Below the pieces are notes generated by a model. It was not told where the DNA came from and searched no databases. It worked only from the letters and a program-made list of their open reading frames with translations. Positions 10,209 to 35,555 of a stretch of 64,000 bases of DNA are shown in pieces. Source of the stretch: Mesorhizobium sp. Pch-S (lineage in GTDB: Bacteria; Pseudomonadota; Alphaproteobacteria; Rhizobiales; Rhizobiaceae); assembly GCF_004136315.1 (NCBI RefSeq), contig NZ_CP029562.1, forward strand, positions 6,099,501 to 6,163,500, given 5' to 3'. Position numbers and translations under genes: made by a program. Position 1 is the first letter of the stretch. Every line of letters begins with the position of its first letter.

Positions 10209-11280
<1,072 letters not shown>

Positions 11281-11293
11281 GAAAACCGCTCCT

Positions 11294-11396
11294 AGAGCAA
11301 CCCCAGCAAAAACATACAGAGATTTTTGCGTCCGGAATTGCGTGAAAACAGACAGTTAGAACATTTCCGCGCTTTCGCAAAAGCGCAAACACCCTA
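11294..11396. repeat. Rhizobial intergenic palindromic repeat, copy 1
   Basis: About 100 bases starting TAGAGCAACCCCAGC, with GATTTTTGCGTCCGGAATTGCGTGAAAACA in the middle as shorter recognisable parts and ending TTTCCGCGCTTTCGCAAAAGCGC...CACCCTA. It shares order and spacing with the copies at 13968, 14344, 35460, 49550 and 53873. Its last bases contain the TAG stop codon of the alpha-galactosidase gene. Confidence 0.7.
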
Positions 11397-12713
11397 TTGA
11401 TAGCTGGGCAGAAGGTTGCCGTGGGCGACGATCAGGTCGTCGACAAGCGAAACGATCTCGTCCAGCGAAAGCTGCGCGGCGGTGTGCGGATCGAGCATGG
11501 CAGCTTGATAGATGGCCTCACGCCTGGAGGTCAACGCTGCCTCTACCGTCATTTCCTGCACATTGACATTGGTGCGCATGATGCCGGCGAGCTGTGGTGG
11601 CAGCTTGCCCATGCGCACCGGCTGGATGCCGTTGCGATCGACATGGCAAGGCACCTCGACGCCACAGCCTTCGACCAGATTGTCGATCAGGCGGTCGTTG
11701 CGGACATTGCCGTAGATCAGTGACGGCTTGCCGGTCACCATCGAATGGATGATGGCCGCTGCGTATTCGTTGCTCTTGCAGACCTCCAGCGGCTTGTCCG
11801 GATCGGCCAGTTCCTCACGCAGACGGTTCCAGTCGGCGATCTGCTCTTCACACCACACCGGATACTGGTCGAGAATGACCTTGTAGCGTTCGATGATGTC
11901 TTCGCGGCCCGGCTTGATGAACCAGGAATTGTATTCGGAGAAATGGGTACTGGATTCGGTCACGAAGTGCCCGAAGCGGCGCAGGACCGCGAAACGGACG
12001 GAATCATCCTGCGGGAAGCTTCCCTCCGCCGCCATCCGCCGAAGCCTCGGATAGAGATCTTCACGCGAGCCGTCGGCAAGGCGCTTCTCGAACTTCAGGA
12101 AGAAGGAAACGTGGTTCAGGCCGGCGCAGGTGTAGTCGATATCGGCGATATCTTCGCCGAGGCAGCGGGCGAGATGGCCGGACGTCTCCTGGACGCTGTG
12201 GCACAAGCCGACATAGCGGATATCGGATGCAGCACGGGTCGTTGCCCAGGTGTTCATGGCCATCGGGTTGACGTAGTTCATCATCATCGCATTCGGGCAG
12301 AGCTCGCGCATGTCCCTGGCGATGTCCAGGATCACCGGAATGGTGCGCAGTGCGCGGAAGATGCCGCCGATGCCCAGCGTGTCGCCAATGGTTTGACGCA
12401 GGCCATATCTCTTCGGCACCTCGAAGTCGGTGACGGTGGCCGGACGATAACCGCCCACCTGCATCATCAGGATGACGAAATCGGCATCCTTCAACGCCTT
12501 GCGACGATCCAGTGTCGCCTCGACCTTCAGTCTGGTCAGGCCAAGCGTTTCGCCGATGCGGCGCGCCACCGTCTCGGAGGTCGAAAGTCGTTCCGGATCG
12601 ATGTCGAACAGACTGATTTCCGAATCCTGCAATTCGACATTGCTCAAGACGTCGCTGAGAATGTTCTGGGCGAAGACGGTGGAGCCCGCGCCTACGAGGC
12701 AAATCTTGGCCAT
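11394..12713 (-). CDS. melA: Alpha-galactosidase, glycoside hydrolase family 4
   Basis: A 439-residue GH4 enzyme, which cleaves alpha-galactosides such as melibiose by an NAD+- and metal-dependent oxidation/elimination route. Seen directly: the Rossmann loop LVGAGSTVFAQN (residues 6-17), NYVNPMAMNTWA (146-157), the metal-binding GLCHSVQ with Cys 171 and GLNH with His 201. Length suits the family (about 450). The MelR-like regulator and sugar importer nearby support the substrate. Its TAG stop is formed by the edge of a palindromic repeat. Start at 12713 has no strong ribosome site but matches the family N-terminus. Confidence 0.9.
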   Translation of the reverse strand: MAKICLVGAGSTVFAQNILSDVLSNVELQDSEISLFDIDPERLSTSETVARRIGETLGLTRLKVEATLDRRKALKDADFVILMMQVGGYRPATVTDFEVPKRYGLRQTIGDTLGIGGIFRALRTIPVILDIARDMRELCPNAMMMNYVNPMAMNTWATTRAASDIRYVGLCHSVQETSGHLARCLGEDIADIDYTCAGLNHVSFFLKFEKRLADGSREDLYPRLRRMAAEGSFPQDDSVRFAVLRRFGHFVTESSTHFSEYNSWFIKPGREDIIERYKVILDQYPVWCEEQIADWNRLREELADPDKPLEVCKSNEYAAAIIHSMVTGKPSLIYGNVRNDRLIDNLVEGCGVEVPCHVDRNGIQPVRMGKLPPQLAGIMRTNVNVQEMTVEAALTSRREAIYQAAMLDPHTAAQLSLDEIVSLVDDLIVAHGNLLPSYQ

Positions 12714-12868
12714 GAAGAGTTCCTTTTGGTCCGTGAAGTCGATGCCCGGACGGGCGTTCCAAAAGGGAAAATCTACTGTTCAGGCGCAAATTTCTTGCCG
12801 GCGAGCCCCTGAAAATTCCCGAAAGACAGTGACCGCCGGGCAGACCAACGGACCGCCCGGCTCAGGCG

Positions 12869-14104
12869 TCAATGGAATTCGTGGCTCCCCTCGAATTCAG
12901 CGGAAAGCCGAATGCCGAATGTGTGCTTGTTGTCGTCGCCATGCTTGTCGAAGGCATAACCTGCGGCGATCTGCCAACTCTCATTGCTGAGGCCCAGATC
13001 CTGGCCGAACTTGTAGGCGACAGTCGCATCGAACAGATGTTCGACCAGGTCCGGCTCGTCGGTGATCTGCTCGCGTTGCTGGGTATAGGCGATCGAATAG
13101 GTCATCGCCTCGCGCTGCAGTGCTGCCGACACGGTCAGGAACAGGGCATCGTCGGGACCGCCGCCGAAGTTATCGAACCAGGCGGCTTCCGTGAACAGTT
13201 TCAGCGTCAGCTCGCTGCCCAGGGCCACATTGCCGTTCAGTCCCCCAAGCAGCCCGGTTTCGTTGCCGAAACTGTGCTCGCCGCCCTTCTGATAGCGTGC
13301 CCCCAGGCGATATCCGAATGTGCCCTCGTCATAACAGCCTGCAGCGCCAGCCCCGAGGCATCCGGCGAAATCAAGTGCTACCGAGGAAATACCGTCGCTG
13401 TTGCCCGCGCCGCCATCTTCCAGGGTGTGGCGGCCACGATTGGTGAACAGCGATTCCGACAGGGAGCTGCGATCCACCCCGAAGGCTGCAACCTCGATTT
13501 CGTTGTGGAAGCTGCCCGTCTCAAAGCCATAGGCGACCGAAGCGCCCACGCGTTCCTTCAGCTCATAGTTACCTGCGAGGTCAGTGCCGTGGATACCGGG
13601 CGTGATGTCCCAGGCCTTGCCGAAAGCCGGATGGAACTTGCCGACGCGCAGTCCAATCCCACCGATATGGAACTGTGCATTGAGTTCCGAGACATAGGTA
13701 CCGACGTGGTGAAAATACTGATTCACGCCCAGTTCCTCGTCCTTCACCTCCTCAGTGATGAGATGGCCGAAAAACGCAACGCCTTCGACCGGACGATAAG
13801 AAGCGGTGAATTCGACCGTCGGCGCGGCGACGAAATAGTCGTCGTCGGCATGGTGTGGAAACCGGTTCCAGTTCCCAACCGTTTCCATGTAGGCATAGTA
13901 GTCGATGCAAGGTGCGCTGCATTCGCCAGCCGACGCCCGCTCGATACCGGTGAAAGCTGTTGTAGCCAGAGCAATTCCAGCAAAAGTGCGCAGCGATTTT
14001 GCGTTCGGAAGTGCGTAAAAACGAAGAATTGGAGCGTTTCCGCGTTTCCGCGAAAAGCGCAAACGCTCCAATATAGCGGGCGCAAAAAGCCAGTATCGGT
14101 TCAT
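12869..14104 (-). CDS. Putative outer-membrane beta-barrel protein with a repeat-encoded N-terminus
   Basis: A 411-residue protein, probably an outer-membrane barrel: after a signal-like stretch (LRTFAGIALATTAFTGIERASA, residues ~38-59) come many short alternating aromatic/glycine strands such as VEFTASYRPVEGVAFFGHLI and FGIRLSAEF near the end. No specific family was recognised. Residues ~11-46 are encoded by copy 2 of the rhizobial palindromic repeat (13968-14073), read in frame with no stop codon. The start at 14104 is supported by a GGAAGGACGGAG ribosome site and no other ATG is available before the signal peptide. Location next to the alpha-galactoside genes suggests, but does not show, a role in sugar entry. 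Confidence 0.65.
   Translation of the reverse strand: MNRYWLFAPAILERLRFSRKRGNAPILRFYALPNAKSLRTFAGIALATTAFTGIERASAGECSAPCIDYYAYMETVGNWNRFPHHADDDYFVAAPTVEFTASYRPVEGVAFFGHLITEEVKDEELGVNQYFHHVGTYVSELNAQFHIGGIGLRVGKFHPAFGKAWDITPGIHGTDLAGNYELKERVGASVAYGFETGSFHNEIEVAAFGVDRSSLSESLFTNRGRHTLEDGGAGNSDGISSVALDFAGCLGAGAAGCYDEGTFGYRLGARYQKGGEHSFGNETGLLGGLNGNVALGSELTLKLFTEAAWFDNFGGGPDDALFLTVSAALQREAMTYSIAYTQQREQITDEPDLVEHLFDATVAYKFGQDLGLSNESWQIAAGYAFDKHGDDNKHTFGIRLSAEFEGSHEFH
13968..14073. repeat. Rhizobial palindromic repeat, copy 2, inside a coding sequence
   Basis: The block AGAGCAATTCCAGCAAAAG ... GAGCGTTTCCGCG ... AAACGCTCCAAT matches the other copies over its full length. It lies inside the 5' part of the outer-membrane protein gene, adding about 35 codons between the start codon and the hydrophobic part of the signal peptide. 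Confidence 0.8.
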
Positions 14105-14482
14105 GAGATGCTCCGTCCTTCCCCTCTGAAAGAGCTTCGGACGGTTTTATTTGCCGGCTCCCATGCCGCTCTCCGTCCGGTGCAAAAGCTGCGCCGGACA
14201 GCCGAGATCGTCTTGTCGAAGTTCGAGCGATCACTCCTGGAAACAAGCGATTTGGGTAACTTTGGCTCAGGCGGCCGCCTGTCCCGGCGCGCTGGCCGTG
14301 CGATTTGCCAGCTCTGCCTGCTTCCGCCTTGCAGCACGCGATGCTAAAGCAATTCCAGCAAAAAAAGCGTAGCGGTTTTGCGTGCGGAATTGTGCAATAA
14401 CAAAGAGTTAGAGCGGTTCCGCGGTTCCGCAAGGCGGAAACGCTCTAATCATCGCCAGCCTCTAACCGAATTGGAACGACCC
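14105..14482. other. Gene-free divergent interval with one palindromic repeat
   Basis: This 378-base stretch lies between the outer-membrane protein gene (minus) and cutC (plus). Bases 14105-14343 hold the ribosome site of the former and probably its promoter, but no convincing reading frame. Bases 14344-14447 are repeat copy 3. No promoter for cutC was recognised between the repeat and the proposed start. Confidence 0.5.
14344..14447. repeat. Rhizobial palindromic repeat, copy 3
   Basis: Starts TAAAGCAATTCCAGCAAAA and ends GCGGAAACGCTCTAA; the GAGCGGTTCCGCGG / CGGAAACGCTC arms can pair. It is the copy closest to the family's usual form (AAAGAGTTAGAGCG in the middle). It ends 35 bases before the proposed cutC start, so annotation from the first upstream ATG would wrongly include repeat-derived residues. 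Confidence 0.8.
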
Positions 14483-15250
14483 TTGGCCAGCCCCGATGTG
14501 ACGAAGAAACTCCCCGTGATCGAAATCTGCGTCGAAGGCATCGATGGCCTGCTTGCCGCCGAGCGTGCCGGCGCCGACCGCGTCGAGCTCTGCGCCAGCC
14601 TTGTCGAGGGCGGCATCACCCCGAGCCTCGGCACCGTTCGCCTGGCGCTGGAACTGGCCAGGATTCCGTTCCATGTCATCGTGCGTCCACGCGGCGGCGA
14701 CTTCCTCTATAGCGAGACGGAATATCGCTCCATGCTGGCCGATGTCGCTGCGCTTCGCGAACTCGGCGTCGCCGGTGTCGTGGTCGGCTGCCTGACTGCC
14801 GATGGTAAAATCGACGAAGAGCGCATGACTGGCCTCGTTGATGTTGCCGGCCCACTCGCGGTCACCTGTCACCGCGCCTTCGACATGACACGCGACCCGG
14901 CCGAGGCGCTCGAAGCGTTGATCCGCTGCAAGGTCGGACGTGTGCTCACCTCTGGCCAGCGCGACACTGCCGTTGAAGGCGCAGATCTTTTGGCGGCGCT
15001 CGTCAAACAGGCCGCCGGCCGCATCATCATCATGGGTTGCGGCGCACTCGATCCTCAGAACATCGGCGCAGTAAGGGCAAAGACCGGACTGACCGAAATG
15101 CATTTCGCTTCGCTCAGGGACGAGGCCAGCGGCATGCTATACCGCAACCCGCATGTCGGCATGGGCGGTGACGACCTCGACCGTGAATACCGCAACACCC
15201 TGACCGACGAGGTGCTTGTCGCGACGACCATCAAGGCTGCGCGCACGTGA
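14483..15250 (+). CDS. cutC: Copper homeostasis protein CutC family
   Basis: A ~255-residue TIM-barrel protein. Conserved CutC segments are IEICVEGIDGLLAAERAGADRVELCASLVEGGITPS, VRPRGGDFLYSE, GVVVGCLTADGKID, TCHRAFDMTRDP and LTSGQ. The family is linked to copper handling, although its biochemical role is unsettled. The start is uncertain: no ATG fits, and TTG at 14483 with GGAACGA upstream, or GTG at 14498, are the best options; the ATG at 14378 lies in repeat copy 3. The stop overlaps the GTG of the next gene (GTGA), so the two are probably translated together. Confidence 0.85.
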   Translation: MASPDVTKKLPVIEICVEGIDGLLAAERAGADRVELCASLVEGGITPSLGTVRLALELARIPFHVIVRPRGGDFLYSETEYRSMLADVAALRELGVAGVVVGCLTADGKIDEERMTGLVDVAGPLAVTCHRAFDMTRDPAEALEALIRCKVGRVLTSGQRDTAVEGADLLAALVKQAAGRIIIMGCGALDPQNIGAVRAKTGLTEMHFASLRDEASGMLYRNPHVGMGGDDLDREYRNTLTDEVLVATTIKAART

Positions 15251-35455: not shown

Positions 35456-35459
35456 ATCC

Positions 35460-35555
35460 GGTGCAATTCCAGGAAAAGTACGCAGCGTTTTCCGCCAGGA
35501 ATTGCGGAAGGGCAAAGAGCCGGAGCGTTTCCGCTGAAAGCCGAAAAGCTCCGCT
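35460..35555. repeat. Rhizobial palindromic repeat, copy 4
   Basis: GGTGCAATTCCAGGAAAAG ... CGCAGCGTTTTCCG ... GGAATTGCGG ... AAAGAGCCGGAGCGTTTCCGCTG ... AAAGCTCCG; same order of blocks as the other copies but more diverged. It begins five bases after the WS/DGAT stop. Confidence 0.65.

Follow-up and report, generated by a model that had tools for sequence, protein, structure and literature searches.

The window, a stretch of 64,000 nucleotides from the soil bacterium Mesorhizobium sp. Pch-S, carries the gene of a porin-like outer-membrane protein with a palindromic repeat in frame near its 5' end, along with other copies of the same repeat. The features are as follows.

12869..14104, minus strand: porin-like gene of 411 aa with the repeat in frame (ORF, AlphaFold2 and Foldseek)
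14111..14122, minus strand: Shine-Dalgarno-type site GGAAGGACGGAG, with the same letters in the insert-free M. loti LU ortholog (L061)
14069..14104, minus strand: codons 1-12 (MNRYWLFAPAIL), comprising the ancestral start, the n-region and the front half of the former hydrophobic core (MIRYWLFAPAIL of L061 aligns here)
13966..14071, minus strand: copy 2 of the 106-bp two-hairpin element, in the porin-like gene (R1 model, 117.1 bits, E 1.7e-23; fold)
13967..14068, minus strand: net insertion of 102 bp, codons 13-46, missing in M. loti LU (DNA alignment with L061, codon comparison)
13943..13987, minus strand: present hydrophobic core, residues 40-54 (TFAGIALATTAFTGI), with 40-46 from the element and 47-54 ancestral (hydropathy, alignment)
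13928..13966, minus strand: residues 47-59, ancestral, which complete the signal peptide up to ASA|GE, its likely cleavage site (ASAGEC is shared by L061 and P0001-P0003)
11292..11397, minus strand: copy 1, which abuts the GH4 gene, its edge TAG being the GH4 stop codon (covariance model)
14344..14448, minus strand: copy 3, in the spacer that lies 5' of porin and cutC (covariance model, 96.6 bits)
35458..35554, minus strand: copy 4, more decayed (covariance model, 63.6 bits)

The AlphaFold2 model of the 411-aa protein has a mean pLDDT of 82.7 (54 aligned sequences), with values below 50 at residues 1-33 and 45-60, and its beta-strands start at residue 66. The top Foldseek matches for this model are porins, such as V. 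cholerae OmpT (E 2.1e-11, TM 0.50/0.65) and Neisseria PorB, and the predicted beta-barrel fold resembles that of solved porins. A Pfam/NCBIfam profile search of the protein gave no family at E<=0.001, and hence no porin profile. In the mature part, pS is 0.472 and pN 0.032 between the window and M. loti LU, and the resulting pN/pS of 0.07 points to strong constraint.

The repeat and its landing sites

The element is 106 bp long and forms two hairpins, with the consensus CTAGAGCG...GCTCTAG. Its covariance model (R1) was built from 30 copies, and one stem pair is G-C in 16 of these and C-G in 12. The genome holds at least 150 copies, every one with E<=7.3e-9, which agrees with the dispersed palindromic repeat proposed in the earlier note; this number is a lower bound, as 150 of 3716 first-look candidates were scored. 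Copy 2 folds as RNA with -39.4 kcal/mol (z -3.93), a value equalled by one of 200 shuffles, and its identity as a copy of the repeat is far beyond chance. An Rfam search of window positions 11000-15000 gave no match. The consensus has three stop-free frames, and the ten copies found within genes (see below) all use these three; such openness is not unusual, since 14% of shuffles have as many open frames (P 0.14). Copy 1 has an ortholog in M. loti LU at L272:14486-14589. Directly adjacent tandem copies occur at L105 (G000 4809398-4809602) and at L266:17912-18117 (G084).

The element appears to behave like a non-autonomous, RIME-like mobile element, and it may still be mobile at present. As is expected of MITE-type elements, empty sites are found in relatives for nine genes, eight at the DNA level and one, a CubicO hydrolase gene, at the protein level. 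In 20 of 149 copies a neighbouring coding ORF has its stop codon exactly at the edge TAG (offset +1), compared with 50 stops spread across the 40 positions before the edge. The GH4 stop at 11394-11396, at the edge of copy 1, is one example. Four plasmid loci were inspected, and in all four the gene only touches the element edge with its stop codon (three TAG, one TAA). Because TAG stops lie at the edges of the genome copies and plasmid genes end there, the element seems to favour CTAG-like sites. Where the insert is missing, the porin site is CTGG, which nearly matches the usual CTAG edges, and the site in a lytic transglycosylase is TTAA. Landing at a TAG stop leaves the protein intact, and seems to be a second landing niche. 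The net gain of 102 bp against an element of 106 bp fits four shared bp as a target-site duplication. In 30 copies examined for target-site duplication and terminal pairing, the 4-bp edges pair or match no better than shuffles (92 vs 91.8 and 68 vs 68.3), which lends support to neither. Eight of the 149 copies (L110, L112, L127, L143, L159, L170, L172 and L237) appear to supply 8-28 C-terminal tail codons and a stop to a coding ORF.

Insertion into the porin signal peptide

The M. loti LU ortholog has the same ATG, the same Shine-Dalgarno-type site and closely similar upstream DNA, and is shorter by exactly 34 codons. It reads MIRYWLFAPAIL and then directly ATTAFAGVEQASA|GEC, and the window protein reads MNRYWLFAPAIL, 34 further residues and then ATTAFTGIERASA|GEC. 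Over the 364 aa after the insert the two are 93.1% identical. The earlier note had placed copy 2 in frame at the 5' end of the gene at 13968-14073, two bases off the model, and had called for an ortholog without residues 11-46 or so; L061 is such a protein, lacking exactly residues 13-46. It had also described the start as well placed, and GGAAGGACGGAG does lie six bases before ATG 14104, as it does in M. loti LU. Orthologs starting 3' of the repeat, which that note had set against its own reading, did not appear, since L061 uses the ancestral ATG and its ribosome-binding site. The suggested 35 or so codons between start and signal need adjustment. The addition is in frame and stop-free, but it amounts to 34 codons (residues 13-46) and lies inside the ancestral signal peptide. 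Likewise, the last codons of the repeat do merge into the signal, where TFAGIAL makes up about half of the core, but the first 12 residues and the end of the signal are ancestral.

Two other accounts of the locus were discarded. A chance ORF running across an intergenic repeat is ruled out by the empty-site ortholog and the conserved start. A porin start after the repeat is ruled out as well, as the first ATG, GTG or TTG 3' of the element falls at residue 73.

Among 146 genomes of the genus, nine match the porin-like protein at 1e-20, namely its own, M. loti LU and seven at 37-43% identity. Three database relatives, P0001, P0002 and P0003 (95, 86 and 83% identical), retain the insert and are 411 aa each. 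Their alignment scores to the insert are 142, 106 and 82, and the next score among the 101 database relatives is 34; nine of the other 98 are shorter than 345 aa, and seven of those nine start within the mature part, where insert status is unreadable.

The stretch ahead of the hydrophobic core has 39 residues and a charge of +9 in the window protein, vs five residues and +2 in M. loti LU. The best 12-residue hydropathy mean is 1.55 in the window protein, 1.82 in M. loti LU and 1.93-2.44 in P0001-P0003. By hydropathy and charge only, the protein has the layout of a Sec signal peptide, with a basic n-region, a hydrophobic core and small residues at the cleavage site. The cleavage region is conserved, and ASA|GE is the cleavage site predicted from it.

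The events at this gene can be reconstructed as follows. The two-hairpin repeat inserted 102 net bp at codon 12/13 and split a 25-residue signal peptide after residue 12. The gene stayed open because the net length is divisible by three and translation runs through a frame in which the consensus has no stop, one of three such frames. The 3' end of the element encodes TFAGIAL, which joins ATTAFTGI, so that a hydrophobic core again precedes the conserved cleavage region, and the remainder becomes a long basic n-region that would be cleaved off with the signal peptide. Since TFAGIAL and ATTAFTGI rebuild the core, Sec export of the protein very probably survives. The hairpin of -39 kcal/mol just 3' of the start could reduce translation of the gene. 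A comparable insertion event is proposed for six other exported proteins of the same genome. Signal peptides may be a tolerant landing site, where the insert is removed at maturation and has to provide no more than basic residues ahead of a hydrophobic stretch.

Recurrence and fate of the in-frame copies

Screening covered 149 of the 150 model matches, one falling beyond the fetched stretches. Coding calls relied on a home-made hexamer score trained on 165 long ORFs and on inspection by eye. Most of the 28 rows flagged had the wrong frame or a usable start 3' of the element, and some were ambiguous. Ten of the 149 copies were taken as in frame within genes. The hosts are:

Window gene: porin-like protein
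L037: CubicO hydrolase (PF00144)
L115: lytic transglycosylase (PF13406)
L145: RND adaptor (TIGR01730)
L173: MauG-like lipoprotein (PF03150)
L111: DsbD_N protein (PF11412)
L243: 7TM-GGDEF-EAL protein
L039: branched-chain amino-acid permease (PF02653), in the N-tail
L033: a product that we take to be a CocE-like hydrolase, in an interdomain linker
L054:745-1986, minus strand: citrate-synthase-like protein (PF00285), a possible internal copy

Nine of the ten have insert-free relatives, and in these nine the insert lies in a signal peptide in seven (assigned by layout), in the N-tail of the permease and in the interdomain linker of the CocE-like hydrolase. For the citrate-synthase-like protein, the plasmid collection gives only relatives below 60% identity and no close insert-free relative.

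The lytic transglycosylase carries the insert in G000 and G084; of 61 genomes, the remaining 59 have a best match that begins at residue 23-47, and L183, L184 and L186 were inspected and lack it. The MauG-like insert is present in G000, G084 and G095; 58 genomes match, and in the remaining 55 the match does not begin before residue 25 (L196 and L197, both inspected, are insert-free). The RND adaptor has it in G000 and G095 and lacks it in G084 (five of 61 genomes match). G000 and G084 share the DsbD_N insert, and the other 58 of 60 matching genomes match from residue 32-49, L246, L247 and L250 being insert-free on inspection. The GGDEF-EAL insert occurs in G000, G084 and G095, and the other six of eight genomes match from residue 30-36, with L256, L259 and L261 inspected and insert-free; the start of this gene, TTG or GTG, was picked by the analyst. 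The permease has the insert in G000 and G095 and lacks it in G084 (four of 10 genomes match). The CocE-like insert is absent in G084, where residues 1-414 and 449-644 match contiguously (two of 61 genomes match).

The CubicO hydrolase is a weaker signal-peptide case. P0102 has the insert (497 aa) and P0104 and P0156 lack it (463 and 461 aa), a comparison at the protein level only, and the 60 genus genomes hold no ortholog. Its start is unsure: 3' of the element there is a GTG with GGAGG, and it is at this point that the annotation of three relatives (P0103, P0105 and P0106) begins.

Judged by overall protein length, seven of the nine genes gained 34 codons net, and the RND adaptor and the MauG-like lipoprotein 33. 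In the seven signal-peptide pairs, the best 12-residue hydrophobic window shifts by no more than 0.4 Kyte-Doolittle units. The stretch ahead of it has 0-13 residues and a charge of +1 to +4 without the insert, and 34-47 residues and a charge of +5 to +12 with it. The in-frame signal-peptide insertion in the porin-like gene is real and well supported, as one of seven such cases in the genome, one of them weaker.

Pooled over the six genes with shared inserts (one pair each), the inserts have pS 0.133, pN 0.061 and pN/pS 0.46, vs pS 0.369, pN 0.034 and pN/pS 0.09 in the rest of the same genes. Because of this difference in pN/pS, the insert amino acids appear to be weakly constrained. Synonymous sites in the inserts have diverged about one third as much as those elsewhere in these genes, which a story of pure tolerance does not favour; DNA-level constraint or conversion between copies are candidate causes. 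Gaps between orthologous in-frame copies are zero or multiples of three at all six loci (0 or 6 nt at five; in the RND adaptor the gap is 12 codons). The three shared copies that do not belong to the in-frame set all have single-base or other frame-shifting gaps. This comparison is partly circular, as a protein search was what located the in-frame copies of relatives.

The porin insert is missing from the more distant homologs whose N-terminus can be read, so the insertion is the derived state overall. The insert-free form of M. loti LU may itself be derived, with one insertion before the lineage split and a later clean removal in LU. In the best tree LU falls among the insert carriers, which requires two changes, and the other copies have conflicting distributions among G000, G084 and G095. 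However, a tree that groups the four carriers has a p-AU of 0.07 and so is not rejected, and G000, G084 and G095 form an unresolved trichotomy, for which lineage sorting or recombination suffices. With the distant homologs also pointing to insertion, the loss in LU is possible but doubtful, and it can be compatible with the best explanation. The conflicts in copy distribution are that the transglycosylase and DsbD_N copies are shared by G000 and G084, and the RND adaptor and permease copies by G000 and G095.

The reading as a whole, in which a RIME-like repeat inserted in frame, the porin signal peptide was split and rebuilt, and the insert is tolerated, is likely. The insertion with its exact empty site, the frame, the retained start, the retention in relatives and the recurrence are shown directly; working export, the cleavage site, present mobility and tolerance as opposed to benefit are inferred. 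A tolerated passenger appears likelier than an insert retained as useful, whose long basic n-region would change the targeting, timing or amount of export, as the extended signal peptide region does in some autotransporters. Such a benefit would be in keeping with the layout of the seven signal-peptide cases compared, each of which has a long basic stretch ahead of its main hydrophobic core, with the retention of the porin insert in four sequences of 411 aa that are as little as 83% identical, and with the low nucleotide change in the inserts. The low pS also fits DNA-level constraint or conversion, however, and with weakly constrained insert amino acids and close relatives that lack the insert, usefulness is quite unlikely. 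The broader proposal, that signal peptides are recurrently turned by the mobile palindrome into long basic leaders kept for tuning export, is also unlikely. If it is true, there would be two landing niches, TAG stops and signal peptides, and a natural source of new export leaders.

The slightly lower core hydropathy of the window copy (1.82 to 1.55) and the stable hairpin just 3' of the start could also mean that the insertion damaged the gene, with the protein made but no longer exported in the insert-bearing lineage. This is very improbable given the mature-part pN/pS of 0.07, although that value mixes insert-bearing and insert-free lineages, and given that P0001-P0003 keep the frame and have core hydropathy of 1.93-2.44. 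Translation might instead begin inside the element, at an in-frame TTG at residue 12 or 15 of the window gene, the second preceded by an element-supplied GGAG; the n-region would then be shorter and the element partly translated. The first ATG and its Shine-Dalgarno-type site are ancestral and identical in LU, though, and the internal starts are not conserved (residue 12 is Pro in P0003, and residue 15 is Phe in all three of P0001-P0003), which makes an internal start most improbable. A tolerated insertion, translated from the ancestral ATG, is the preferred reading of this locus.

Relation to known repeats

Rickettsia is the best-known source of palindromes that lie in frame in conserved genes. 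The present genome alone has nine in-frame cases with insert-free relatives, seven of them at a type of site that is removed during maturation, which suggests a simple and testable rule for where such elements survive. These genes also form a natural experiment on the limits of length and basicity in the n-region of a signal peptide, and they are a warning where gene callers cut back long N-termini. The layout resembles that of the extended signal peptide region of autotransporters, where a long basic n-region lies before a normal hydrophobic core; the protein class is different and the likeness is one of layout only.

The RIME elements of rhizobia were reportedly described by Osteras in 1995. 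The element consensus occurs in 517 of 72,556 plasmid records, at 2639 places, and the best places are mostly 80-95% identical. Of these records, 451 are from Rhizobium (305) or Sinorhizobium (146). With its rhizobial host range and many copies in such plasmids, the 106-bp two-hairpin element fits RIME as far as the description of that element goes. RIMEs are described as intergenic in the consulted part of one account (PMC2573895), whereas ten copies here are in frame within genes. By the intergenic test, 10 of 149 copies are in frame and 8 are possible C-terminal tails, and the rest are not so judged without full annotation.

Bru-RS of Brucella are structured repeats of about 103-118 bp listed as intergenic (PMC2267715), and CIR of Caulobacter has two independent stem-loops and TA at its ends, without a reading frame (PMC2229807). 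By their descriptions in the portions consulted, both resemble the element as structured alphaproteobacterial repeats.

Rickettsia RPE are palindromes of 105-146 bp that lie in frame in conserved protein genes, as described in the consulted parts of two accounts (PMC2229807, PMC10969869). The element is like RPE in its in-frame insertion into conserved genes with insert-free orthologs, nine genes here. It differs in genus and in its sites, since RPE are described in metabolic genes, and seven of the nine sites here are at signal peptides; the likeness is again by description.

The earlier note knew of no described case of a secretion-signal extension by this rhizobial element. That stands for the element itself: the consulted portions of the openly licensed literature searched mention neither rhizobial copies that lie in frame nor recurrent insertion into signal peptides. 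The porin case is not alone in its genome, however, and Yersinia RU-2 (YPAL) in YPO1552 came earlier (Delihas 2007, PMC2759123). There, a small mobile repeat was proposed to contribute to a predicted signal peptide, and the consulted portion of that account presents YPO1552 as a fusion that creates a new exported protein, with other-genus relatives that have unrelated signal sequences (PMC2759123). Here, by contrast, the signal peptides existed before the insertion, the insert-free relatives are close and several genes are affected. An exact empty site is found here, and the consulted portion of the RU-2/YPO1552 account has none (PMC2759123). RPE and RU-2 are thus precedents, the one for in-frame and the other for signal-peptide insertion of a repeat.
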